The position numbers and the translations under genes are program-made. From Toxonevra muliebris (Eukaryota > Arthropoda > Insecta > Diptera > Pallopteridae), in contig OY829326.1 in NCBI GenBank assembly GCA_963691655.1, positions 86,483,235-86,547,234 on the forward strand: DNA of 64,000 nt. Reading direction: 5' to 3'. The notes under the pieces were generated by a model that worked only from the letters and a program-made list of their open reading frames with translations, was not told where the DNA came from and made no database searches. Within the stretch, counting starts at the first letter, position 1. Every line of letters starts with the position of its first letter. This document shows positions 12,636-58,880 of the stretch, one piece after another.

Positions 12636-13604
12636 TATGTACATATATTATGCACGTATGTTGTATGCTTCTGTATATACGAGTTATATGCAACTTGGAG
12701 AGCAAGTGAAGCTTGCATTTTCGGTTATTTAATGATGAAATGAAAGAAAAATACTCGTTCATAATGTTATATGTATACGTAATTTTACATTGATTTGTTT
12801 GTTTTTAGCAACACAAAACAGAAAGTAAAAGTTCGTTAGCTTGTTACAAACTTACGTCGACTGTTGTAGTTGTTTCATTATTTTACAATATAGTGTTGGT
12901 AGGCCTTTTCTAACTGTAAAGCGTGATGTTTTTTCGAATTCGATTTTGAGGAGTATAATACACCGTGTCGAAGGTATAAATCGAATCTCGAATTCATCAA
13001 ACGACTACATTCAGTTCAATAACGTCTTAGTGCAACTTACTAAAAGCAGAGTAAAGAAAACGGTTACTGTTTTCGTTGATTATTTATATTCGTCAATATT
13101 AAAGTTTTTCGCGTCTTTCTGCAAAAACTACTCGAATTATTCTTCCGGCATGTTGAAATTTATCGTAAGGAAATAACGTGTATATACGTAATATGTTTAT
13201 GTAAAAATAAACACTGTGTTGTATTTTTGTGCAGTTTTTGTATCGTTTTAATAGTTAATTCCAGTGAATAAAATTTCATTGAATTAATAGAAAAAATTTA
13301 AATGTCTTTGAGGTTCATTTCAGAACGTTATCCTATTTGAAACATGACGAAATTATAACAGGTGGTGCTGTCTTCTACTTCTCAAAGAATGTTAGCTGTC
13401 AACCGCTTGATATTGGCATTCAAAATTCATTACAAAAACAAATCACCAACTTTTATAATTCTGCCATGATTTGGAGACAGAAAAAGTAGTTCTTATGGAA
13501 ATTATATATTTGGAAGGATTACATATACAGTATGTTACAAAATTGAGCAAATGAAGGGGATTTTTGGGACATGAAAAAAAGCCAAAAATGCTGTCAAATT
13601 AAAA
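12636..13604 (+). repeat. Repeat block B1, promoter- and polyA-like signals
   Basis: About 950 bp shared with 18391-19999. It contains a TATA-like GGTATAAAT near 12974, an initiator-like TTCAGTT near 13010, and AATAAA near 13207, an order seen in LTRs. A frame that ends at 13176 (SSGMLKFIVRK) is almost unchanged between the copies, but the flanking DNA is just as conserved, so this is not evidence for a gene. I could not define LTR edges. Confidence 0.5.
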
Positions 13605-14320: not shown

Positions 14321-15345
14321 AGCCGTCGCACAGTGTTTAGGGTGGAACAAGCTAGCTGGACAAAATTATTTTTTTACTTTTTTCTATTCTTTGGGTCGAG
14401 ATAAGAAAAAAAATTGTATCGGAGCAGGGGCTGCAAATGCACCTTTGAACCGCAATGGGTTAATGTCCAAAGGTAATGTTATTTACATTGCTAACTTAAA
14501 ACGCCATAACTTTGAATGTACTAAAACTAGAGAGCTAAGGAAACATATTTTGGAAAGAAGATTTAATGACTAACATTTAAATAAAACAATGTTTATAACA
14601 TTGGGTTACAAAAAACAAATTTTCCATACAATGTTTCTACCATCGACGAACAGATACCTAAATCAGAAAAAATAATTTTTGCATTCAGACATCTATGTCA
14701 TTTCTGAATACTTTTCCTTTGCATACAAAGTTTGTAGAAAATTAAAAAAAAAAATAATATCACTTACAATTAAAATCAACAACAATTTTTATTAATTTTT
14801 CCTTTAAAACAAAGTACATTTCTGGTGCTTAATTACAACACAAAAATAAACATATGGAATGAAATTAAACTCTACTCGTTGGAAGTTGTTCCAAGTTCTT
14901 TTCTAAAAATCGCTCCTTTAACGCTACTGCGCCATATTTTTCCAATATTCTCTGAAAACTTTGCTCTTCTTTTTTGCAGCTCTCTTAGGGAATCTTCATT
15001 TGTATCGAAATGATCGAATTTGTAGCGAATAAATCGAAAAGGGTTTGAATTTTTTGTAATATTCACATTCTAGAAAATTGAAAAAACATATTTTGTTTAA
15101 CTTTGCCCAATAACAAAAATTTAATTATGCTTACAATTCGACAATAGTCCAGCTTTTATTGTAAAATAAAGAAAATGCTTTCCAAAATAACATCGGGGTA
15201 GACTGACTATAACTATCTTATTTGTTTCCAATAAGTTTAACCGAGAGTTACGGTTGAAAATTTTTTACAACGTCTACTGTAAATAAATACATTAAAAAAG
15301 TAAATGTTAAAAACAAACAGAGAAACAAGAGTTTTAGAGTATTTA
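14321..15345. repeat. Repeat block C1
   Basis: Starts at CCGTCGCACAGTGTTT and matches C2 from 22039. A subsegment (14965-15345) recurs at 37205-37474. The short frame ending at 14573 (KHILERRFND) is shared with C2 out of register and looks like decayed repeat DNA. The family could not be named. Confidence 0.55.
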
Positions 15346-18390: not shown

Positions 18391-19999
18391 ATGTACATAT
18401 ATTATGCACGTATGTTGTATGCTTCTGTATATACGAGTTATATGCAATTTGGAAAGTAAGTGAAGCTTGCATTTTCGGTTATTTAAGGGGGTATTCTACC
18501 CGAGATGGTGCGAAATATCGATGTTTTCAAATCGTTGTAAATGACAAGCTTTTCAATATTTTTATTCGAGGTTTTTTGAAAGTTTTTCTAAAGGTTATGA
18601 ACAATAATTTTCGTTTTTAATGTTAAAAATATCTTTGTTAATAATGGTTCATTCGGCGCCTCGAACTTGAGCCTGCCGAAAAAAGTTGCTCCATGGTGGA
18701 CATGATATCTCCGGTTTAAATATTCTGAAACACAAAATGTAACCCATTTTGTAATCGTGAGACTTCCTGCTATCGCCTCATCTAGGGAATAAGAAAAAAA
18801 ACAGACTTTTGAAAAAAATTACGAATTTTTGCCCTGTTTTTGTTTATATTTTGCATTAAAAACATTAGTTAAACAAATGCTTTCGCCATACCTATACATT
18901 TGCTTAGTAGCCTTGTAAAATTTCAAGTCAATAGGACAAGTAGTTTTTTGTGAATAGTGTCCACCGTCCAAAAAAAAATGGTTACGAGAAAAACGAGTTT
19001 AAAGATTTACAAACATGGTACTTACAAATGATGTAACTTACGGTAAATCAGCGATTCCAGAACCATACATTTCCCCCTCTTCTTTCTCATAAAACTAGTT
19101 GTCTACATCAAAAATATTAAATTAAAAAAAATCGATTTTTCGGACCATCTCGGGTAGAATACCCCCTTAATGATGAAATGTAAGAAAAATACTCGTTCAT
19201 AATGTTATATGTATACGTAATTTTACATTGATTTGTTTGATTTGTTTGAGCAACACAAAACAGAAAGTAAAAGTTCGTTAGCTTGTTACAAACTGTTGTA
19301 GTTGTTTCATTATTTTACAATATAGTGTTGGTAGGCCTTTTCTAACTGTAAAGTGTGATGTTTTTTCGAATTTGATTTTGAGGAGTATAATACACCGTGT
19401 CGAAGGTATAAATCGAATCTCGAATCCATCAAACGACTACATTCAGTTCAATAACGTCTTAGTGCAACTTACTAAAAGCAGAGTAAAGAAAACGGTTACT
19501 GTTTTCGTTGATTATTTATATTCGTCAATATTAAAGTTTTTCGCGTCTTTCTGCAAAAACTACTCGAATTATTCTTCCGGCATGTTGAAATTTATCGTAA
19601 GGAAATAACGTGTATATACGTAATATGTTTATGTAAAAATAAACACTGTGTTGTATTTTTGTGCAGTTTTTGTATCGTTTTAATAGTTAATTCCAGTGAA
19701 TAAAATTTCATTGAATTAATAGAAAAAATTTAAATGTCTTTGAAATTCATTTCAGAAGGTTATCCTATTTGAAACATGACGAAATTATAACAGGTGGTGC
19801 TGTCTTCTACTTCTCAAAGCGGTTGACAACCGCTTGATATTGGCATTCAAAATTCATTACAAAAACAAATCACCAATTTTTATAATTCTGCCATGATTTG
19901 GAGACAGAAGGATTACATATACAGTATGTAAAAAAAATTGAGCAAATGAAGGAGCATTTTTGGGACATGAAAAAAAGCCAAAAATGCTGTCAAATTAAC
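18391..19999 (+). repeat. Repeat block B2, interrupted by a TTAA element
   Basis: Matches B1 except for the 680-bp insertion at 18487-19166, a short deletion near 19290 and a few substitutions. Confidence 0.6.
18487..19166. mobile_element. 680-bp TTAA-flanked TIR element with a visible empty site
   Basis: Both ends read GGGGGTATTCTACCCGAGAT inward, with pairing continuing to about 37 bp. TTAA flanks both sides (18483-18486, 19167-19170). The homologous unoccupied site, a single TTAA, is at 12729-12732 in block B1. TTAA use fits piggyBac- or Kolobok-type elements. It has no transposase and is non-autonomous. Confidence 0.9.
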
Positions 20000-22802: not shown

Positions 22803-23339
22803 ACTTTATTATTATTGACATGATCTTCACGCAAAGAAAAAAAACTTTTATCGCCCTTTTGTGGAGAATAGATTACTTTTACGCTGAACAAAAACGTTTC
22901 TGAGGAACGTTGCCGTGTCTGCAGAAACCAAAACCGTTTTCTGCAAAAGATTAATAATTTTATGATGAACGAAAATTCGTTCACAATAAAATTAAAGCAA
23001 TTTTCTTTTCTGGCAAATGAAAAAAACGTTTTTGCCAAACGAAAGTCCACAACTCTCTTCTCTTTTTATTTTCGTTTTCCTCGCTCTCGTCGCAAAAAGA
23101 AGCAGCAGTGACGCTTACATTCAAACTCCACACAACAACATAACGGGAAGTATTATTTGTCTACGCATTATTGAAGATTTTTAATTGTACATTGAAATTA
23201 TTTCATCACATTTTTTCTTGTCTATAAAAAAGTGCGTGGTGTTATTAAAAAATAAATAAAAGTGTGTGATTTATAATAAATAATACAAAAATTGTAATAT
23301 TATAATTTTATGTAAATTTCATACACTTTTTCTAGTTTA
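22803..23339. other. Spacer, partly inverted-repeat DNA
   Basis: Contains several AACGTTTT and CGTTT-type inverted motifs (22850-23040) suggestive of a decayed foldback element. The 93-codon minus frame (22769-23050) has no recognisable domain. Confidence 0.4.
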
Positions 23340-23735
23340 TAATTAGAAAATTTTAATGACAGGCTTTTTGGTAGAAATTTTCATACGCAAATAGTTAACT
23401 ATTTTATACTTTTTTTCCAACGTTTCGGCGCAAATTTTAGGCCTTCTTCAGGGAATTTTTATTTATTTATCTGTTTTTTAAGAAAATTTACATATTTTTA
23501 AAAAACTATAATTATTACAAAGATATCACAACATTTTAACACTTACAGTAAATAATATTCGTAAAACATTCAGTCAAGTAATTAAATTAAAATAAAATAT
23601 AGTTAATTAACAAAAAACATGAAAAAATCTTTACAAAACACGTAACATTTTTTAACGCCGAATATTATGGATTGCCACACTGTAGCCGCAGCTTATATTG
23701 TCTTTGTCTTCGTTGTTGTTCATCGTTTTTCTTAG

Positions 23736-26125: not shown

Positions 26126-26904
26126 TTAGTTTTTTCTGTATAAGTAGGCTCTCTAGTGTGTATCTTGTACTCTCTCTTTTTTCTCTGTCCAGTGTTTATA
26201 CTTGTTTAAAATTTGCAGTGTGGTGTTTTTCTAACATATGTTGTGCTAGTGCTGTTGTTGTTTTTTCCCTCTTTATGTCTGCCTGATGTTCCGCTATTCT
26301 GGTTCCCAAAAGTCTTTTTGTTGTTCCTATGTATACAAGATCACATTTCTCGCTCTCATACCCATTACAGCCGATCTCGTAAACAACATTGCATTGTTGC
26401 TCTTTTGTTGTTGGAGTTTTAGAGTTCGTAAAAATTGAGCTAAGAGTGTGATTGGGTCTGTGAGCGAATTTTGTGGTTTGTTGTTGCTTTATTATTGAGT
26501 GCAGTATTTTGCTTTTCGTTAGTGTTGGTATGTACGGAACTCCAAAATATTTTTTTGTGCTGCCAGATTTAAGTGATTTGTCAATTGTTTGGGGGATTTT
26601 TGTGTTAAGGTTAAATACGTTATTTCTTATTAAGGTATTTATTATTTGTAGTGTGTAGTCATTAATTTTGAGTATTGTTTTAATTTTGTTTATGTTGTCC
26701 TTGTGAAACTGTTTATCGCTTAAAGATAGTACCTTTCCTATTAAATTATCTGCTGGGTTGATTTTTTGTGTTATTGGTTGTGTTGAAAAATAGTTTATTA
26801 TTCGTCCTGATGCTGCGGGTTACATTTTATTTATCTGTTTTTTGAGAAAATTTAAATTGCGCCGAAACGTTGGGAAAAAAGCCTGTCATTATAATTTCGT
26901 TAAC

Positions 26905-26917
26905 AATACATAAATTG
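26905..26917 (+). repeat. 13-bp direct repeat, left flank of ribozyme array
   Basis: AATACATAAATTG, identical and in the same orientation at 33374-33386. It is the probable target-site duplication of the whole array. A length of about 13 bp fits target-primed insertion rather than cut-and-paste. Confidence 0.7.
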
Positions 26918-27072
26918 ATGATAGTTTTTTAGGAGACTATGAAAATTAAATCTAGAGGTTAATTTTCAAAGTCATGACTTAAGTTCATGTTAATTTCGTT
27001 ATTTGAAGTTATATATAAACAGGTTAATGAACAAATGTAGTCATCACAACAACAATGTATATAGAGACGGGC

Positions 27073-27122
27073 AAATCAGACGGCCGTTTCGGAATCCGCC
27101 ACAATTCCTCATCAGTGATCTT
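27073..27122 (-). ncRNA. Type I hammerhead ribozyme, array copy L1
   Basis: On the minus strand in order: helix I strand AAGAUCA; core CUGAUGA; helix II GGAAU/AUUCC closing loop UGUGGCGG; core GAAA; a two-base-pair helix III (AC/GU) with loop GGCC; cleavage triplet GUC; then UGAUUU, which pairs back to form helix I (6 bp). All invariant core bases of the family are present. Predicted cleavage falls after the C at 27079. Confidence 0.93.
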
Positions 27123-27555
27123 AGTGGTAGTTCTTAATCTTTCAATATCCCATATAAGCTACTAATATTTGAAATCATAACCCAGAATTATGGATTTGAT
27201 TCCAAATATCTTCACTGAATAGTGATATTGAAAGAAACTACCACTACCGTTCTATACACTTATGTTGTTGTTTTTTTCCCATCGTAGCTAGTCTGCATAA
27301 CAGTTCGTTATTTGAAAGTCTAGTACATGGGAGAGTGTGTGTGTGTGAGAAAATGATTCTAGGTGTCATTTTTTCTGAACGGTCCCCATTCGATCAGTTC
27401 ATGATAGTTTTTTAGGAGACTATGAAAATTAAATCTAGAGGTTAATTTTCAAAGTCATGACTTAAGTTCATGTTAATTTCGTTATTTGAAGTTATATATA
27501 AACAGGTTAATGAACAAATGTAGTCATCACAACAACAATGTATATAGAGACGGGC

Positions 27556-27605
27556 AAATCAGACGGCCGTTTCGGAATCCGCCACAATTCCTCATCAGTG
27601 ATCTT
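27556..27605 (-). ncRNA. Hammerhead ribozyme, array copy L2
   Basis: Identical to L1, helix III loop GGCC. Confidence 0.93.
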
Positions 27606-28038
27606 AGTGGTAGTTCTTAATCTTTCAATATCCCATATAAGCTACTAATATTTGAAATCATAACCCAGAATTATGGATTTGATTCCAAATATCTTCACTG
27701 AATAGTGATATTGAAAGAAACTACCACTACCGTTCTATACACTTATGTTGTTGTTTTTTTCCCATCGTAGCTAGTCTGCATAACAGTTCGTTATTTGAAA
27801 GTCTAGTACATGGGAGAGTGTGTGTGTGTGAGAAAATGATTCTAGGTGTAATTTTTTCTGAACGGTCCCCATTCGATCAGTTCATGATAGTTTTTTAGGA
27901 GACTATGAAAATTAAATCTAGAGGTTAATTTTCAAAGTCATGACTTAAGTTCATGTTAATTTCGTTATTTGAAGTTATATATAAACAGGTTAATGAACAA
28001 ATGTAGTCATCACAACAACAATGTATATAGAGACGGGC

Positions 28039-28088
28039 AAATCAGACGGTCGTTTCGGAATCCGCCACAATTCCTCATCAGTGATCTT
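28039..28088 (-). ncRNA. Hammerhead ribozyme, array copy L3
   Basis: Differs from L1 only in the helix III loop, GACC, a position with no required identity. Confidence 0.93.
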
Positions 28089-28520
28089 AGTGGTAGTTCT
28101 TAATCTTTCAATATCCCATATAAGCTACAAATATTTGAAATCATAACCCAGAATTATGGATTTGATTCCAAATATCTTCACTGAATAGTGATATTGAAAG
28201 AAACTACCACTACCGTTCTATACACTTATGTTGTTGTTTTTTCCCATCGTAGCTAGTCTGCATAACAGTTCGTTATTTGAAAGTCTAGTACATGGGAGAG
28301 TGTGTGTGTGTGAGAAAATGATTCTAGGTGTCATTTTTTCTGAACGGTCCCCATTCGATCAGTTCATGATAGTTTTTTAGGAGACTATGAAAATTAAATC
28401 TAGAGGTTAATTTTCAAAGTCATGACTTAAGTTCATGTTAATTTCGTTATTTGAAGTTATATATAAACAGGTTAATGAACAAATGTAGTCATCACAACAA
28501 CAATGTATATAGAGACGGGC

Positions 28521-28570
28521 AAATCAGACGGTCGTTTCGGAATCCGCCACAATTCCTCATCAGTGATCTT
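28521..28570 (-). ncRNA. Hammerhead ribozyme, array copy L4
   Basis: GACC loop variant; core and all helices unchanged. Confidence 0.93.
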
Positions 28571-29003
28571 AGTGGTAGTTCTTAATCTTTCAATATCCCA
28601 TATAAGCTACTAATATTTGAAATCATAACCCAGAATTATGGATTTGATTCCAAATATCTTCACTGAATAGTGATATTGAAAGAAACTACCACTACCGTTC
28701 TATACACTTATGTTGTTGTTTTTTTCCCATCGTAGCTAGTCTGCATAACAGTTCGTTATTTGAAAGTCTAGTACATGGGAGAGTGTGTGTGTGTGAGAAA
28801 ATGATTCTAGGTGTCATTTTTTCTGAACGGTCCCCATTCGATCAGTTCATGATAGTTTTTTAGGAGACTATGAAAATTAAATCTAGAGGTTAATTTTCAA
28901 AGTCATGACTTAAGTTCATGTTAATTTCGTTATTTGAAGTTATATATAAACAGGTTAATGAACAAATGTAGTCATCACAACAACAATGTATATAGAGACG
29001 GGC

Positions 29004-29053
29004 AAATCAGACGGTCGTTTCGGAATCCGCCACAATTCCTCATCAGTGATCTT
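29004..29053 (-). ncRNA. Hammerhead ribozyme, array copy L5
   Basis: GACC loop variant in a 482-bp unit. The unit also carries a private C-to-A change near 29189. Confidence 0.93.
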
Positions 29054-29485
29054 AGTGGTAGTTCTTAATCTTTCAATATCCCATATAAGCTACAAATATT
29101 TGAAATCATAACCCAGAATTATGGATTTGATTCCAAATATCTTCACTGAATAGTGATATTGAAAGAAACTACCACTACCGTTCTATACAATTATGTTGTT
29201 GTTTTTTCCCATCGTAGCTAGTCTGCATAACAGTTCGTTATTTGAAAGTCTAGTACATGGGAGAGTGTGTGTGTGTGAGAAAATGATTCTAGGTGTCATT
29301 TTTTCTGAACGGTCCCCATTCGATCAGTTCATGATAGTTTTTTAGGAGACTATGAAAATTAAATCTAGAGGTTAATTTTCAAAGTCATGACTTAAGTTCA
29401 TGTTAATTTCGTTATTTGAAGTTATATATAAACAGGTTAATGAACAAATGTAGTCATCACAACAACAATGTATATAGAGACGGGC

Positions 29486-29535
29486 AAATCAGACGGCCGT
29501 TTCGGAATCCGCCACAATTCCTCATCAGTGATCTT
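29486..29535 (-). ncRNA. Hammerhead ribozyme, array copy L6
   Basis: GGCC loop, intact core. Confidence 0.93.
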
Positions 29536-29968
29536 AGTGGTAGTTCTTAATCTTTCAATATCCCATATAAGCTACTAATATTTGAAATCATAACCCAGAA
29601 TTATGGATTTGATTCCAAATATCTTCACTGAATAGTGATATTGAAAGAAACTACCACTACCGTTCTATACACTTATGTTGTTGTTTTTTTCCCATCGTAG
29701 CTAGTCTGCATAACAGTTCGTTATTTGAAAGTCTAGTACATGGGAGAGTGTGTGTGTGTGAGAAAATGATTCTAGGTGTCATTTTTTCTGAACGGTCCCC
29801 ATTCGATCAGTTCATGATAGTTTTTTAGGAGACTATGAAAATTAAATCTAGAGGTTAATTTTCAAAGTCATGACTTAAGTTCATGTTAATTTCGTTATTT
29901 GAAGTTATATATAAACAGGTTAATGAACAAATGTAGTCATCACAACAACAATGTATATAGAGACGGGC

Positions 29969-30018
29969 AAATCAGACGGCCGTTTCGGAATCCGCCACAA
30001 TTCCTCATCAGTGATCTT
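29969..30018 (-). ncRNA. Hammerhead ribozyme, array copy L7
   Basis: GGCC loop, intact core. Confidence 0.93.
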
Positions 30019-30451
30019 AGTGGTAGTTCTTAATCTTTCAATATCCCATATAAGCTACTAATATTTGAAATCATAACCCAGAATTATGGATTTGATTCCA
30101 AATATCTTCACTGAATAGTGATATTGAAAGAAACTACCACTACCGTTCTATACACTTATGTTGTTGTTTTTTTCCCATCGTAGCTAGTCTGCATAACAGT
30201 TCGTTATTTGAAAGTCTAGTACATGGGAGAGTGTGTGTGTGTGAGAAAATGATTCTAGGTGTCATTTTTTCTGAACGGTCCCCATTCGATCAGTTCATGA
30301 TAGTTTTTTAGGAGACTATGAAAATTAAATCTAGAGGTTAATTTTCAAAGTCATGACTTAAGTTCATGTTAATTTCGTTATTTGAAGTTATATATAAACA
30401 GGTTAATGAACAAATGTAGTCATCACAACAACAATGTATATAGAGACGGGC

Positions 30452-30501
30452 AAATCAGACGGTCGTTTCGGAATCCGCCACAATTCCTCATCAGTGATCT
30501 T
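30452..30501 (-). ncRNA. Hammerhead ribozyme, array copy L8
   Basis: GACC loop. The unit runs into the assembly gap 30 bases further on. Confidence 0.93.
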
Positions 30502-30531
30502 AGTGGTAGTTCTTAATCTTTCAATATCCCA

Positions 30532-30731
30532 NNNNNNNNNNNNNNNNNNNNNNNNNNNNNNNNNNNNNNNNNNNNNNNNNNNNNNNNNNNNNNNNNNNNN
30601 NNNNNNNNNNNNNNNNNNNNNNNNNNNNNNNNNNNNNNNNNNNNNNNNNNNNNNNNNNNNNNNNNNNNNNNNNNNNNNNNNNNNNNNNNNNNNNNNNNNN
30701 NNNNNNNNNNNNNNNNNNNNNNNNNNNNNNN
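30532..30731. other. 200-N assembly gap inside the array
   Basis: Exactly 200 N, a conventional filler length, placed where the array switches orientation. True size and content are unknown, and the copy number of the array is therefore a minimum. Confidence 0.95.
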
Positions 30732-30836
30732 TATCACTATTCAGTGAAGATATTTGGAATCAAATCCATAATTCTGGGTTATGATTTCAAATATTTGTAG
30801 CTTATATGGGATATTGAAAGATTAAGAACTACCACT

Positions 30837-30886
30837 AAGATCACTGATGAGGAATTGTGGCGGATTCCGAAACGACCGTCTGATTT
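30837..30886 (+). ncRNA. Hammerhead ribozyme, array copy R1
   Basis: Plus-strand orientation, GACC loop. Predicted cleavage after 30880. Confidence 0.93.
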
Positions 30887-31319
30887 GCCCGTCTCTATAT
30901 ACATTGTTGTTGTGATGACTACATTTGTTCATTAACCTGTTTATATATAACTTCAAATAACGAAATTAACATGAACTTAAGTCATGACTTTGAAAATTAA
31001 CCTCTAGATTTAATTTTCATAGTCTCCTAAAAAACTATCATGAACTGATCGAATGGGGACCGTTCAGAAAAAATGACACCTAGAATCATTTTCTCACACA
31101 CACACACTCTCCCATGTACTAGACTTTCAAATAACGAACTGTTATGCAGACTAGCTACGATGGGAAAAAAACAACAACATAAGTGTATAGAACGGTAGTG
31201 GTAGTTTCTTTCAATATCACTATTCAGTGAAGATATTTGGAATCAAATCCATAATTCTGGGTTATGATTTCAAATATTAGTAGCTTATATGGGATATTGA
31301 AAGATTAAGAACTACCACT

Positions 31320-31369
31320 AAGATCACTGATGAGGAATTGTGGCGGATTCCGAAACGGCCGTCTGATTT
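31320..31369 (+). ncRNA. Hammerhead ribozyme, array copy R2
   Basis: GGCC loop, core intact. Confidence 0.93.
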
Positions 31370-31802
31370 GCCCGTCTCTATATACATTGTTGTTGTGATG
31401 ACTACATTTGTTCATTAACCTGTTTATATATAACTTCAAATAACGAAATTAACATGAACTTAAGTCATGACTTTGAAAATTAACCTCTAGATTTAATTTT
31501 CATAGTCTCCTAAAAAACTATCATGAACTGATCGAATGGGGACCGTTCAGAAAAAATGACACCTAGAATCATTTTCTCACACACACACACTCTCCCATGT
31601 ACTAGACTTTCAAATAACGAACTGTTATGCAGACTAGCTACGATGGGAAAAAAACAACAACATAAGTGTATAGAACGGTAGTGGTAGTTTCTTTCAATAT
31701 CACTATTCAGTGAAGATATTTGGAATCAAATCCATAATTCTGGGTTATGATTTCAAATATTAGTAGCTTATATGGGATATTGAAAGATTAAGAACTACCA
31801 CT

Positions 31803-31852
31803 AAGATCACTGATGAGGAATTGTGGCGGATTCCGAAACGGCCGTCTGATTT
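31803..31852 (+). ncRNA. Hammerhead ribozyme, array copy R3
   Basis: GGCC loop, core intact. Confidence 0.93.
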
Positions 31853-32285
31853 GCCCGTCTCTATATACATTGTTGTTGTGATGACTACATTTGTTCATTA
31901 ACCTGTTTATATATAACTTCAAATAACGAAATTAACATGAACTTAAGTCATGACTTTGAAAATTAACCTCTAGATTTAATTTTCATAGTCTCCTAAAAAA
32001 CTATCATGAACTGATCGAATGGGGACCGTTCAGAAAAAATGACACCTAGAATCATTTTCTCACACACACACACTCTCCCATGTACTAGACTTTCAAATAA
32101 CGAACTGTTATGCAGACTAGCTACGATGGGAAAAAAACAACAACATAAGTGTATAGAACGGTAGTGGTAGTTTCTTTCAATATCACTATTCAGTGAAGAT
32201 ATTTGGAATCAAATCCATAATTCTGGGTTATGATTTCAAATATTAGTAGCTTATATGGGATATTGAAAGATTAAGAACTACCACT

Positions 32286-32335
32286 AAGATCACTGATGAG
32301 GAATTGTGGCGGATTCCGAAACGGCCGTCTGATTT
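32286..32335 (+). ncRNA. Hammerhead ribozyme, array copy R4
   Basis: GGCC loop, core intact. Confidence 0.93.
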
Positions 32336-32768
32336 GCCCGTCTCTATATACATTGTTGTTGTGATGACTACATTTGTTCATTAACCTGTTTATATATAAC
32401 TTCAAATAACGAAATTAACATGAACTTAAGTCATGACTTTGAAAATTAACCTCTAGATTTAATTTTCATAGTCTCCTAAAAAACTATCATGAACTGATCG
32501 AATGGGGACCGTTCAGAAAAAATGACACCTAGAATCATTTTCTCACACACACACACTCTCCCATGTACTAGACTTTCAAATAACGAACTGTTATGCAGAC
32601 TAGCTACGATGGGAAAAAAACAACAACATAAGTGTATAGAACGGTAGTGGTAGTTTCTTTCAATATCACTATTCAGTGAAGATATTTGGAATCAAATCCA
32701 TAATTCTGGGTTATGATTTCAAATATTAGTAGCTTATATGGGATATTGAAAGATTAAGAACTACCACT

Positions 32769-32818
32769 AAGATCACTGATGAGGAATTGTGGCGGATTCC
32801 GAAACGGCCGTCTGATTT
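32769..32818 (+). ncRNA. Hammerhead ribozyme, array copy R5
   Basis: GGCC loop, core intact. Confidence 0.93.
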
Positions 32819-33251
32819 GCCCGTCTCTATATACATTGTTGTTGTGATGACTACATTTGTTCATTAACCTGTTTATATATAACTTCAAATAACGAAATTA
32901 ACATGAACTTAAGTCATGACTTTGAAAATTAACCTCTAGATTTAATTTTCATAGTCTCCTAAAAAACTATCATGAACTGATCGAATGGGGACCGTTCAGA
33001 AAAAATGACACCTAGAATCATTTTCTCACACACACACACTCTCCCATGTACTAGACTTTCAAATAACGAACTGTTATGCAGACTAGCTACGATGGGAAAA
33101 AAACAACAACATAAGTGTATAGAACGGTAGTGGTAGTTTCTTTCAATATCACTATTCAGTGAAGATATTTGGAATCAAATCCATAATTCTGGGTTATGAT
33201 TTCAAATATTAGTAGCTTATATGGGATATTGAAAGATTAAGAACTACCACT

Positions 33252-33301
33252 AAGATCACTGATGAGGAATTGTGGCGGATTCCGAAACGGCCGTCTGATT
33301 T
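33252..33301 (+). ncRNA. Hammerhead ribozyme, array copy R6
   Basis: GGCC loop. This is the outermost ribozyme; the array stops about 75 bp after its predicted cleavage site. Confidence 0.93.
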
Positions 33302-33373
33302 GCCCGTCTCTATATACATTGTTGTTGTGATGACTACATTTGTTCATTAACCTGTTTATATATAACTTCAAAT

Positions 33374-33386
33374 AATACATAAATTG
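33374..33386 (+). repeat. 13-bp direct repeat, right flank of ribozyme array
   Basis: Partner of 26905-26917. Its direct orientation argues that the right contig is correctly oriented. Confidence 0.7.
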
Positions 33387-33463
33387 GTCTAATAGAAAAT
33401 TAAAAATAGAAAATTTTATTTAAACAAAAACCACAATAAAATGCCAATGTACATATGAAAATT

Positions 33464-34402
33464 TTATATTTTCCAGGGAAATATTTCATTTCGCCGCAGG
33501 ACTTCCTGATCAATTTCAGTCCAGGCTTTCTCTAATGAATTTGTCAGCGACTCCAGACTGTGGTGTTGAGATGCACAAGCCTTACTCTCTAAAATACTCC
33601 AAATAGAGTAGTCCATTGGATTCAAGTCTGGGGAGTATGGTGGCCATTCTTGAGATGTTATAAATCCAGAAAAATTGTCTTTTATCCATGTTTGCGTTAA
33701 TTTTGCCATGTGGGACGGTGCAGAATCTTGCTGGAAAGTCCAGTTTTCATTTCCAAATGTATCTTGGGCCCAGGGAAGAACATGTTCATTTAAAATGCTC
33801 CGATAAACAACCTGGTCAATTTTAACACCCTCTTCAACGAATATTAGAGGGGTTCTGGCATTAGCGGAAACTTCAGCCCATACCATAACGGAAGCTGGCT
33901 TTTGAACTGTTAGCCACATTCGGTCATTTTGCGCATTGAAATGTTTTTCAACCGTGAAAATTTTTTCATCTGTAAACAAGATATTTTCAACATTTTTTAA
34001 CACGGAGGAGCGTAGCAACGCCTTGCATCTTTGCAGTCGCAAATCTTTCTTTTTTTCTGTCAGATCTTGAGCTTTTCGGAGCTTGTACGGCTTAAGATTA
34101 AGCTTTGATTTTGCAATGATTCGCACTGTTTCACGGTTTACTCCCACTTCCTTAGCAATTTTTCTCATTGAGCGCCTTGGATTTCGCTTGATTCGTTTAC
34201 GAATTTTTTCTGTTAAACCAGTAGTGGCAACTGTTGAAAATTTTCCCCGGTCCCTATCTCCAAAACCCCCAGTTTCATTATATCGAATAATAGCTCGGTC
34301 TACCGTACGACTTGACAAATTTAAAGCCTTTGCAATTTGACGGCTACTATAATTTGCCAAATGAAATTTCATAATTTCACGACGAATATTTTCCTTGTCC
34401 AT
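33464..34402 (-). CDS. Tc1/mariner transposase, DD37D (maT) type, intact frame
   Basis: A 312-codon frame starting at ATG34402 (MDKENIRREI). The frame is open upstream to 34462, but only from a non-ATG codon. The product binds transposon ends and catalyses cut-and-paste transposition at TA. N-terminal half: two helix-turn-helix regions (SSRQIAKALNLS and RKIAKEVGVNRETV). DDE/D core: Asp145 in ILFTDEK, Asp226 in FQQDSAPSH and Asp264 in LNPMDYS. The spacing of 37 residues between the last two marks the maT clade. No stop or frameshift is visible, unusual in this window. The right TIR candidate ends at 34557; no left TIR was found, because the sequence is cut by the ribozyme array edge about 80 bp downstream of the stop. 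The copy probably cannot move itself but could still encode an enzyme that acts on relatives. Confidence 0.88.
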   Translation of the reverse strand: MDKENIRREIMKFHLANYSSRQIAKALNLSSRTVDRAIIRYNETGGFGDRDRGKFSTVATTGLTEKIRKRIKRNPRRSMRKIAKEVGVNRETVRIIAKSKLNLKPYKLRKAQDLTEKKKDLRLQRCKALLRSSVLKNVENILFTDEKIFTVEKHFNAQNDRMWLTVQKPASVMVWAEVSANARTPLIFVEEGVKIDQVVYRSILNEHVLPWAQDTFGNENWTFQQDSAPSHMAKLTQTWIKDNFSGFITSQEWPPYSPDLNPMDYSIWSILESKACASQHHSLESLTNSLEKAWTEIDQEVLRRNEIFPWKI

Positions 34403-34529
34403 TTTTATGGAAATTTCAAAATGTAATAACAAAAATTCAAATGAAATTAAAAGCAAAGCCAATGATGAATGAATTTGCTTTTTAAATTAAAGTAACGGTA
34501 AATGGCAAAGCTCTCTGCAGAGTATTAAA

Positions 34530-37204: not shown

Positions 37205-37474
37205 ACTTTGCTATTCTTTTTTGCAGCTCTCTTATGGAATCTTCATTTGTATCGAAATGATCGAATTTGTAGCGAATAAATCGAAAAGAGTTTGAATTTT
37301 TTGTAATAGAATATTTGCATTCTAGAAAATTTAAAAAATATTTAGCCCAATAATAAAAATTTAATTATAAGCTACTGCTTATAATTCGACAATAGTCCAG
37401 CTTTTGTTATAAATACATTAAAAAAGTAAATATTAAAAACGAAGAAACAAACAGAGAAACAAGAGTTTTAGAGT
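37205..37474. repeat. Repeat block C3, left part
   Basis: Matches 14965-15345, with the AGTTTTAGAGTATTTAAGGA junction at its end. It lies directly beside the LINE insertion at 37486. Confidence 0.65.
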
Positions 37475-45377: not shown

Positions 45378-45972
45378 TTAATTAGTAAAAATTTAATTAA
45401 ATTCAATTATTAGGCTTTAAATGAACAATGATGCCAGAAGAATTTTAAAAGGTTCAGAGAACTAGCAGATCAGACGATCGTTTCGGAACCTGCTACGGTT
45501 CCTCATCAGTGATCTTTGTGATAGTTCCTTCATTTCAACAATCTATATAAGTGAAAATACTGTAAAGTATATGAGAATCACAAAGATAGTTAATTTCACT
45601 GAATAGTATTATTGAAAGGAACTACCACTACCGTTCTATATACTTTTTGCAATTCTTCTTTGACACTTGTATTACATATTGGTCAGATTTTCTGACATCT
45701 AATATGAACCGTGTCTGTTTTTCGTATGAAAACATTTTTTTTATACTAGATTTTTAAATTTTTAATATACTAGAAGGCCTGATCTTCTTCTTTTTTAGTA
45801 TTTTTAATTTGGAAAATTTTTTTGCAAGTTCCTTTTAAATTTGGCAGTTCACACTTCAAACGATCGAAACGATCGCCTGATCTGCTAGTTCTATGAACTG
45901 TTTGAAATTCTTCTGGCATCATTGTTAATTTAAAGCCTAATAGTTGAATTTAAATAAATTTTTACTAATTAA
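45378..45972. mobile_element. Palindromic element carrying a diverged hammerhead monomer
   Basis: The left arm (45378-45486) and right arm (about 45862-45972) are inverted copies (TTAATTAGTAAAAATTTA; AATGATGCCAGAAGAATT; CTAGCAGATCAG). Between them, 45490-45655 is homologous to the array unit: a ribozyme, a TAGTTCC..CAATC segment, and CACTGAATAGT with ACTACCACTACCGTTCTATA. The right arm holds only the 3' half of a second ribozyme (CGAAACGATCG, with GCC in place of GUC). So an inverted pair of monomer ends surrounds one monomer. Confidence 0.75.
45467..45516 (-). ncRNA. Type I hammerhead ribozyme, diverged copy
   Basis: Minus strand: AAGAUCA, CUGAUGA, helix II GGAACC/GGUUCC around loop GUAGCA, GAAAC, loop GAUC, GUC, then UGAUCU pairing with AAGAUCA. 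Relative to the array, helix II changes on both sides so that pairing is kept (A-U or U-A replaced by C-G), and helix I gains a C-G in place of a wobble. The core is intact, so it is predicted active. Confidence 0.9.
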
Positions 45973-46124
45973 TTTGAAGTGTGAACCGACAAATTTGCAA
46001 GTAATTTGCAAAAAATTAAAAATACTAAAAAGGACTTTAAGTTTAAATTTTCAGGTAAAATTTTTTTCTGGAACTACCCACACTGGTTTAAAATCAAAAA
46101 AAATCGATCGAAACTCAAAATTTT

Positions 46125-58146: not shown

Positions 58147-58320
58147 TTTCAGTTCAGTGAAAATACTTGAAAACAAAAACCTTGTTATTCTCGGCTACGT
58201 TTTCAAATATTAGGCACTGAAATAAAATGTTGAAATGCCACTAAAAACCATCACAATGTTCACTGATGAGGAATTGTGGTGGATTTCGAAGCGGCCGTCC
58301 AATTTACCTGCGCTATTACA
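58147..58320 (+). repeat. Decayed monomer of the hammerhead repeat family
   Basis: Aligns with the array unit over TTCAGTGAA..TACTTG, TTTCAAATATTAG, ATGTTGAAATGCC and the ribozyme segment. Much diverged, single copy. Confidence 0.65.
58256..58305 (+). ncRNA. Hammerhead ribozyme relic, predicted inactive
   Basis: CUGAUGA and the GUC triplet remain, with helix II GGAAU facing AUUUC. The invariant GAAA is GAAG, and helix I pairing is largely lost. It lies about 120 bp upstream of the gene at 58418-58880. Confidence 0.6.
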
Positions 58321-58424
58321 CTTTTGCCACTTACTTACTTTGATAAAAAGGACGTTTCATTAAGCTTCATTAACAGCACTTTAAACTTTTAAGTAGTAAT
58401 AAAATAAAAGTCAAACTATGAAAT

Positions 58425-58880
58425 ATGAACACTCAGTTTCAAAGTATAACAAGCTTTATTATTTATTTGAAAAATTTATATTTTCAGCTTTTTTGTTCTT
58501 TTTCACTTGCGCTGACAACAGCTTTAAAAATTCATGATTTTGAACACTACGAACATGAGCATGCAGAAAATCATGAGCCTGAACATGAAGAAACTGAACA
58601 TCATCATGAAATCGATCATAAACATGCGACATCACATCAAAGTGTTAAATTTCATCATTATCATGCTGTGCCCGTTTACATTAAGAAAGAAGACCAACAT
58701 TTGATAAAGAAACCTATCGAAATTGGTGGGACGAAGCAAAAACTAAAGATCTTACATCCCGAAACAGAGCATAACCACAATCATGGTCTAGTACTAGAAC
58801 ATCATAGTGAATCAAATTACCATGATCATGGACATCATGAACCACTTTTGGAACATTATGAACATTACCATCACGAATAA
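58425..58880 (+). CDS. His/Glu-rich small secreted protein (hypothetical)
   Basis: The only candidate host gene. The product is rich in His, Glu and Asp: HEHAENHEPEHEETEHHHEI and EHYEHYHHE near the ends. A non-repetitive core (VPVYIKKEDQHLIKKPIEIG, then KLKILHPETEHNH) looks conserved rather than random. Such His-rich secreted proteins of insects are often linked to cuticle or metal binding; that role is inference. Start uncertain. As one exon from ATG58425 it gives 151 residues with a long hydrophobic stretch. Alternatively ATG58418 opens a tiny first exon joined, at an acceptor TTTTCAG ending near 58487, to LFCSFSLALTTA, which would make a compact signal peptide. Short first exons before the signal peptide are common in fly cuticle-type genes. 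Stop at 58878-58880. A decayed ribozyme repeat lies just upstream. Confidence 0.6.
   Translation: MNTQFQSITSFIIYLKNLYFQLFCSFSLALTTALKIHDFEHYEHEHAENHEPEHEETEHHHEIDHKHATSHQSVKFHHYHAVPVYIKKEDQHLIKKPIEIGGTKQKLKILHPETEHNHNHGLVLEHHSESNYHDHGHHEPLLEHYEHYHHE

Follow-up and report, generated by a model that had tools for sequence, protein, structure and literature searches.

A 483-bp hammerhead repeat dispersed through the genome of Toxonevra muliebris, probably a new metazoan retrozyme family moved by Penelope-like element enzymes

A tandem array of 483-bp units carrying hammerhead ribozyme cores lies in the genome of the fly Toxonevra muliebris (Diptera, Pallopteridae; assembly GCA_963691655.1), within a stretch of 64,000 nucleotides of contig OY829326.1 (positions 86,483,235 to 86,547,234, forward strand) that is called the window here and supplies the coordinates used below. 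The question raised by this locus is whether such an array is an ordinary satellite or the product of transposition and, if the latter, what served as its template and which enzymes inserted it. The end positions, target sites and unit variants of 40 insertions point to a new metazoan retrozyme family, probably moved by the enzymes of Penelope-like elements (PLEs).

A preliminary description of this DNA had reported one tandem array with 14 hammerheads at 26918..33373. The repeat itself was borne out by Tandem Repeats Finder (TRF), which delimited two arrays of the 483-bp unit (26918-30531, 7.5 copies, 99% match, and 30732-33375, 5.5 copies, 99%), by the 12 complete units, all of 482-483 bp, and by the 14 cores, 8 of which lie on the minus strand (27115 to 30494) and 6 on the plus strand (30844 to 33259); the single array, however, is actually two inverted arms around a gap of 200 N. 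Each arm is built of head-to-tail units, and the two arms face away from each other with the RNA 3' ends outward. Phase denotes the position in the 483-nt unit of the ribozyme strand, and the zones named in the following lines are those from which a reverse transcriptase (RT) would start.

26905..26917, no strand: left 13-bp target site duplication, AATACATAAATTG
26918..30531, minus strand: left arm (ribozyme strand minus; 7.5 copies by TRF), outer 3' end at phase 161, in the phase-164 zone
30532..30731, no strand: assembly gap of 200 N, which hides the real array length
30732..33375, plus strand: right arm, inverted relative to the left arm (5.5 copies by TRF), outer 3' end at phase 80, in the phase-79 zone
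31424..31444, plus strand: putative phase-79 RT start zone, example (phases about 61-81)
31514..31529, plus strand: putative phase-164 RT start zone, example (phases 151-166)
33374..33386, no strand: right copy of the target site duplication, whose first AA fits the element end as well

Eight of the 12 complete units match the majority row exactly (right arm 5/5, left arm 3/7), the GC content of the unit is 0.34, and the window array holds no stop-to-stop coding frame of at least 100 aa, bar two that cross the N gap, so that the unit is non-coding. A second two-armed array of the same element was observed to be interrupted by exactly 200 N (L012, 3990-4189), and arrays of this form may often break assemblies.

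The hammerhead cores were identified by a motif scan that demanded CUGANGA, a paired helix II, GAAA, helix III, a cleavable triplet and a helix I of at least 4 bp. The window has 15 full motifs (14 in the array and one at 45509), compared with a mean of 0.02 in 50 dinucleotide shuffles, which upholds the complete minimal type I core with paired helix II and 6-bp helix I that had been described. Helix I and helix II both measure 6 bp in the array motifs, whereas helix III consists of one C-G pair plus A-U, closed by GGCC (9/14) or GACC (5/14). Across the 40 loci, 134 of the 136 complete type I cores are intact, and the ribozyme pattern gave no matches in viral and prokaryotic contigs. The stretches from core to cleavage site in the array are as follows.

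27079..27115, minus strand: core to cleavage site, GGCC loop III
27562..27598, minus strand: core to cleavage site, GGCC loop III
28045..28081, minus strand: core to cleavage site, GACC loop III
28527..28563, minus strand: core to cleavage site, GACC loop III
29010..29046, minus strand: core to cleavage site, GACC loop III
29492..29528, minus strand: core to cleavage site, GGCC loop III
29975..30011, minus strand: core to cleavage site, GGCC loop III
30458..30494, minus strand: core to cleavage site, GACC loop III
30844..30880, plus strand: core to cleavage site, GACC loop III
31327..31363, plus strand: core to cleavage site, GGCC loop III, with a match to RF00163 at 23.8 bits (gathering 34)
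31810..31846, plus strand: core to cleavage site, GGCC loop III
32293..32329, plus strand: core to cleavage site, GGCC loop III
32776..32812, plus strand: core to cleavage site, GGCC loop III
33259..33295, plus strand: core to cleavage site, GGCC loop III

The element is no local satellite. A search for further insertions of the unit, as had been proposed, found near-identical copies dispersed through the 491-Mb genome, with at least 297 matches on contigs C1-C5, C7, C11 and C13; those listed were mostly 97-100% identical, and the best 40 of 2013 first-look candidates were scored. The 40 loci comprise the window array and 39 places grouped by eye from the listed matches and then fetched, and their total insertion length ranges from 1.19 to 12.97 units. 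The 55 outer 3' ends read on the ribozyme strand in these loci are confined to two zones: phases 151-166 hold 31 of them, and phases 59-112 the other 24, of which 22 lie at 65-81. Fifteen loci are two-armed, and 14 of the 15 have one end in each zone, with P about 4e-4 under independent choice. The 5' ends are scattered: after 5 N-adjacent pieces (in L012, L039 and the window) were dropped from the 56 arm pieces, 1 of 51 ends lies within 10 nt of the cleavage site, where 2.2 are expected, and the cleavage junction is traversed by 47 of the 56 arm pieces in 132 crossings. A start of RT at the cleaved 3' end was considered and rejected, with 0 of 55 outer ends at the cleavage site. Six of the 51 5' ends cluster at phases 434-440 (P 0.046), the 3' foot of a 125-nt hairpin described below, where RT might stall, as a suggestion only.

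Exact target site duplications of 10-14 bp flank all 15 two-armed loci (13 or 14 bp in eight loci, 12 in five, 11 and 10 in one each), the boundaries having been free to shift by up to 9 bases; among 200 mismatched flank pairs used as control, 19 scored at least 8, 3 of these 11, and none 12 or more. In the 13 loci with duplications of at least 12 bp (26 cuts), the four positions preceding the cut each had T in 17-20 of 26 cases, and GT came next in 10 of 26, against a background of 5%; where element and target share letters, the cut place given can be off by a few bases. The unoccupied window target, GTTAACAATACATAAATTGGTCTAATAG, was found in 9 of 20 resident PLE loci and contains the 13-mer once, indicating that the array was inserted into an older PLE copy, within its 3' region; the pieces of that copy are the following.

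26196..26857 (extent approximate), minus strand: arm of the older PLE copy, with a 207-aa frame 45% identical to its relative P0001 and a sub-cutoff GIY-YIG match
26854..26917, plus strand: opposite arm of the older PLE copy (GCGCCGAAACGTTGGG ... GTTAACAATACATAAATTG), matching the PLE 3' region and entered by the array
33387..33408, plus strand: PLE 3' region resumed after the array (GTCTAATAGAAAATTAAAAATA)

Differences between units follow an all-or-one pattern in the fetched loci. A variant present in every covering unit (2 to 7 units) was observed in 7 of the 40 loci, namely L017 (4/4), L018 (3/3, both arms), L020 (3/3), L025 (2/2), L033 (4/4), L046 (7/7, both arms) and L047 (2/2), L018 and L046 being the two-armed loci among the seven, while all remaining variants in the 39 fetched loci occur in exactly one unit each; any variant was present in 13 of 40 loci, with the 12 bases at arm ends excluded from the count. 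All-or-one variants, together with a private variant shared by opposite arms, fit the repeated copying of a single monomer, as a circle would provide. The near-identity of the units had been ascribed to recent expansion or homogenisation; repeated copying of one RNA monomer would explain it better, the mixed units of the window array excepted. The retrozyme-like nature first proposed for the repeat gains support from the dispersed copies, the target duplications, the two 3' end zones, the scattered 5' ends and the multi-unit inserts that are homogeneous within a locus.

The window also harbors relatives of the 483-bp element, which is family 1 in what follows.

45378..45645, minus strand: family-2 copy that forms one arm of an inverted insertion and holds a complete hammerhead (core 45509)
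45865..46034, plus strand: opposite arm of family 2, beginning inside the ribozyme, with AAATTAAAAATACTAAA near its end
58153..58326, plus strand: degenerate third-family copy (core GAAG, not GAAA)

An additional minus-strand tail piece of family 2 lies at about 45789-45860. Family 2 has at least 42 matches in the genome, which apart from itself are mostly 89-93% identical (best 40 of about 3000 first-look candidates scored), and these numbers and identities indicate an older and larger family. Its ends likewise occupy two zones, 7 of 13 at reference positions 124-134 and 5 of 13 at 182-208, the reference itself being unassignable, and its loop III is GATC in 9 of 13 copies. For the third family at least 39 other relatives were scored in the genome, at 80-89%, and the window copy lies ~100 bp upstream of a histidine-rich 152-aa open frame (58422-58880).

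The ribozyme strand exhibits a strong folding bias relative to shuffles, with z of -8.84 for the linear unit and -9.75 for the circular one, compared with -5.35 for the opposite strand. When the cleaved linear unit is folded without constraints, helix I and helix II form together with the 125-nt hairpin and an outer helix closing the junction; helix I, with the 6 bp earlier given for it, is followed in this fold by the hairpin and the outer helix.

31679..31803, plus strand: 125-nt hairpin (phases 316-440) of an example unit in the minimum free energy fold, contiguous with the 5' strand of helix I

Both RT start zones rank among the ~5% most unpaired windows of the circular fold. Among three divergent copies (array, 45.5 kb and 58.2 kb), 86.5% of pair cells are kept, and 9 compensatory pairs were observed against a mean of 3.9 in shuffles and 0-3 in slid controls, 8 of them in the 125-nt hairpin and 1 in helix II. 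Between divergent families, helix II differs by a double change of one pair, from U-A to C-G, and by one-sided changes, the latter being the only kind in helix I. Most of the retrozyme features examined here were found. The 483 bp of the unit fall outside the ~150-450 bp reported for metazoan retrozymes, which is a reported range and not a mechanistic criterion; self-pairing is strong, and helix I of family 1 is present in the cleaved linear fold but missing from the circular and uncleaved folds.

An RT or GIY-YIG frame is absent from the unit, and the PLE frame adjoining the array belongs to the older copy; the element thus inserts like a PLE but, being without a reading frame, is no PLE. The resident PLEs are candidate helpers. 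P0001 has 129 genome matches, with open frames of up to 866 aa; the 814-aa frame of locus L054 contains an RT domain (E 8e-10), and a PDB sequence search gave weak RT matches only. Minimal hammerhead-like motifs were detected in 18 of 20 PLE loci with a looser pattern, whereas the strict short-helix pattern found no hammerhead in the 20 loci. Their classification as PLEs is based on the RT domain, the sub-cutoff GIY-YIG match, the relationship to P0001, the hammerhead-like motifs in 18/20 loci and the inverted anatomy. A PLE end piece in the window at 23330-23500 (minus strand), which matches PLE family A, carries the minimal hammerhead-like CTGAAGA...GCCGAAACGTT.

Among family A PLEs, 17 3' ends could be read in 14 loci, and they divide 9 to 8 between two zones separated by about 36 nt; an eighteenth, that of L058, is a contig end and was left out. 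Three two-armed PLE copies are readable, of which L061 and L066 have one end per zone. Duplications of at least 13 bp occur in 4 of 10 PLE loci examined (L053, L056, L061, L066), a small sample without chance control, and duplications of 8-11 bp in L051 (an A run), L055 and L067; none was found in L048, L049 (second arm cut off) and L052. Downstream, the tail of family 2 is similar to that of the PLEs, a likeness equalled in 4 of 1000 shuffles. In work with a purified lizard PLE, both strands are cut and extended, AT-rich DNA is favoured and RT starts at two adjacent internal RNA sites that match an optional tail of the genomic copies (PMC11167929, available text); for rotifer PLEs, head-to-head inverted copies and 8-10-bp duplications are mentioned (PMC3846280, available text). 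The link to PLEs, already suggested from the ribozyme, is supported by the end zones, inverted arms and duplications of the resident PLEs and by the lizard biochemistry. Two start zones, extension of both strands, an AT-rich staggered cut and like duplications were all found for the 483-bp element, whereas its rule of one zone per side has no counterpart in the available text of PMC11167929.

We consider it likely that the element is a metazoan retrozyme moved by PLE enzymes via rolling-circle, two-ended target-primed reverse transcription. We lean only slightly towards the more specific version, in which a single ribozyme-made 483-nt circle would serve a PLE protein as template at both 3' ends of a break staggered by 13 nt simultaneously, each end using its own dedicated loop (~164 or ~79), over up to several laps. 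In the proposed cycle, a multi-unit locus would be transcribed on the ribozyme strand, the type I hammerhead of each unit would cut the RNA into 483-nt monomers, and a host ligase would close these into circles, with a predicted RNA junction of ...CGGCCGTC joined to TGATTTGCC. A PLE protein (RT plus GIY-YIG endonuclease) would cut both strands of T-rich DNA with a stagger of about 13 nt; one 3' DNA end would prime near phase 164 of the circle and the other near phase 79, after which the RT, starting from one end or from both, would complete one lap or several and halt at scattered points, and joining would yield a one- or two-armed array with a target duplication. The two end zones, duplications, scattered 5' ends, arms and unit homogeneity are observed, as is the similar anatomy of the resident PLEs; from them we infer transcription, cleavage, ligation, the covalent circle as template and the PLE as enzyme.

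Several observations weigh against this cycle. The sample favours long, recent copies, as a 501-base query was used. Locus L029 has both ends in the phase-79 zone and PLE locus L048 both ends in one zone; among the one-armed loci, a flank match of at least 8 was observed in 10 of 25 and none by that criterion in 15 of 25. An A7 stretch at phase 285 is exposed and yet unused as a start, so accessibility alone is insufficient to define the zones. When the family-1 zones were compared with PLE start sites, shuffles were as good or better in 326 of 1000 cases (phase 164 versus the tail) and 308 of 1000 (phase 79 versus the upstream zone), and family 1 against the PLE start region was not above shuffles in sense (187/500) and weak in antisense (43/500). 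The circular and uncleaved minimum-energy folds of family 1 contain a short pairing across the cleavage site that displaces helix I, with the core CUG paired with CGG; among the folds computed, helix I is present only in the cleaved linear family-1 unit and the uncleaved 45.5-kb copy. Across the 13 family-2 copies 95.1% of cells are paired, with covariation no higher than in shuffles. An Rfam search of the window at the gathering score gave no matches, and RF00163 (Hammerhead_1) was not among the matches of a 1001-base search with E up to 10, whose snoRNA and miRNA matches, far under gathering, were treated as chance; the covariance-model check advised in the preliminary description gave a match, RF00163 aligning full length in short stretches picked beforehand at 23.8 bits (31321-31369) and 24.7 bits (45467-45515), below the gathering score of 34. 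For the endonuclease, GIY-YIG is sub-cutoff in the window PLE piece (17.1 bits, cutoff 22.6) and unlisted in the 814-aa frame of L054; Pfam at 0.001 gave no match in the window PLE fragment, and GIY-YIG was seen in a looser scan alone. Moreover, the start site of the lizard PLE is apparently alike on both strands (PMC11167929, available text), unlike the one zone per side observed here. Three of these points, namely the circular fold, the GIY-YIG match under its cutoff and the likeness of the strands in the lizard PLE, slightly lowered our confidence both in the rolling-circle cycle and in its more specific version.

These observations bear differently on the alternatives. If the template were an uncleaved linear multimer from an already homogeneous array, with PLE enzymes doing the rest, junction continuity and all-unit variants would be expected too, and the uncleaved family-1 fold, which lacks helix I, also speaks for it. 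In vitro, the lizard PLE accepted unprocessed RNA, and mutants of its ribozyme were inserted no less well (PMC11167929, available text), which speaks against a needed ribozyme. The window array, moreover, is the only one of the 40 loci with intermediate variants (2/12 to 4/13 units, in both arms), so one circle is insufficient as an explanation there, and two templates or later rearrangement may be responsible. We nevertheless regard the linear multimer as unlikely, for the variants of the 39 fetched loci are all-or-one where heterogeneous sources like that of the window would give intermediates, and the retention of the core across unlike families, where one pair of helix II has changed in a compensatory way and a further such pair occurs within family 2, suggests a role for cleavage; the 134/136 intact family-1 cores are weak evidence on this point because the copies are young.

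Insertion by machinery of the long interspersed nuclear element (LINE) type, with an APE endonuclease and ordinary twin priming, would make the PLE resemblance incidental. RT and endonuclease frames of LINE type are present in the window, and T-rich cut sites and inversions, as observed here, are also shown by LINE insertions. We judge this explanation improbable, as the two fixed internal zones, the head-to-head arms and the ~13-bp duplications match the PLE copies of the genome (a comparison that covered PLEs only) and the PLE biochemistry of PMC11167929 (available text), and the family-2 tail is similar to the PLE tail. An ordinary satellite, grown by unequal exchange or from reinserted DNA circles, would account for tandem units 99% identical and for the mixed unit types of the window array, but hardly for dispersed short arrays with target duplications and two end zones only, for the same private variant in oppositely oriented arms or for a fold bias that favours RNA of the ribozyme strand, and we give it next to no credence.

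Compared with known systems, the 483-bp element is best seen as a further metazoan retrozyme. With metazoan non-long terminal repeat (non-LTR) retrozymes (Cervera and de la Pena 2020, PMC7229834, available text) it shares a type I hammerhead per unit, tandem repeats, low GC, a non-coding and highly self-paired RNA, target duplications over 4 bp and resident PLEs. In the available text of that paper the RNAs measure about 170-400 nt, against 483 nt here, a 125-nt hairpin joined to helix I is not a feature, and two-armed insertions and paired start zones are undescribed. Searches of open-licence PMC papers, without supplements, turned up no description of retrozymes with paired start zones, all-or-one variants or two-armed insertions. 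The hammerhead repeats of newt and axolotl (PMC7229834, available text) possess a one-pair helix III with a palindromic tetraloop, comparable to GGCC (9/14 in the window) and GATC (9/13 in family 2), which would allow two-molecule ribozymes; the unit differs, however, and the loop is GACC, which is not palindromic, in 5 of 14 window copies. Hammerhead-bearing PLEs (PMC11167929, PMC3846280, available text) share two internal starts, both strands cut and extended, AT-rich targets and inverted head-to-head copies, but the unit here has no frame, its zones lie 84 nt apart instead of spanning a 30-40 nt tail, and one zone is used per side where the strands are alike in the lizard PLE (PMC11167929, available text). 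The pDo500 repeat of Dolichopoda cave crickets (PMC2837043, available text) shares a ~500-bp unit, one hammerhead and compensatory changes, and is described there as satellite DNA. Plant LTR retrozymes (PMC7229834, PMC7761336, available text) share a proposed circular-RNA life cycle with hammerheads, yet have type III ribozymes, LTRs, a primer binding site and 4-bp duplications.

Other features of the window include a 340-aa transposase-like frame of Tc1/mariner type (helix-turn-helix and DDE domains; 33464-34486, minus strand) directly right of the array, a 20-bp tandem unit, ATTTGTAGCGAAAAAATCGA, found at two distant sites (14998-15038 and 37245-37285), and two closely similar open frames ~6.4 kb apart (12829-13176 and 19282-19608) that represent a duplicated stretch.

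Circular RNA as retrozyme template and PLEs as helpers are earlier hypotheses (PMC7229834, PMC7761336, available text), and the insertions of T. muliebris offer countable evidence on both, in the form of end positions, break geometry, arms and shared private variants. The exact start nucleotides are predicted for in vitro work, and a rule is offered that separates such arrays from satellites in other genomes. If the more specific version of the proposed cycle is true, these insertions would constitute sequence-level evidence for retrozyme circles as retrotransposition template and for PLEs as helper, and two-armed multi-unit arrays would be transposition products, not satellites.

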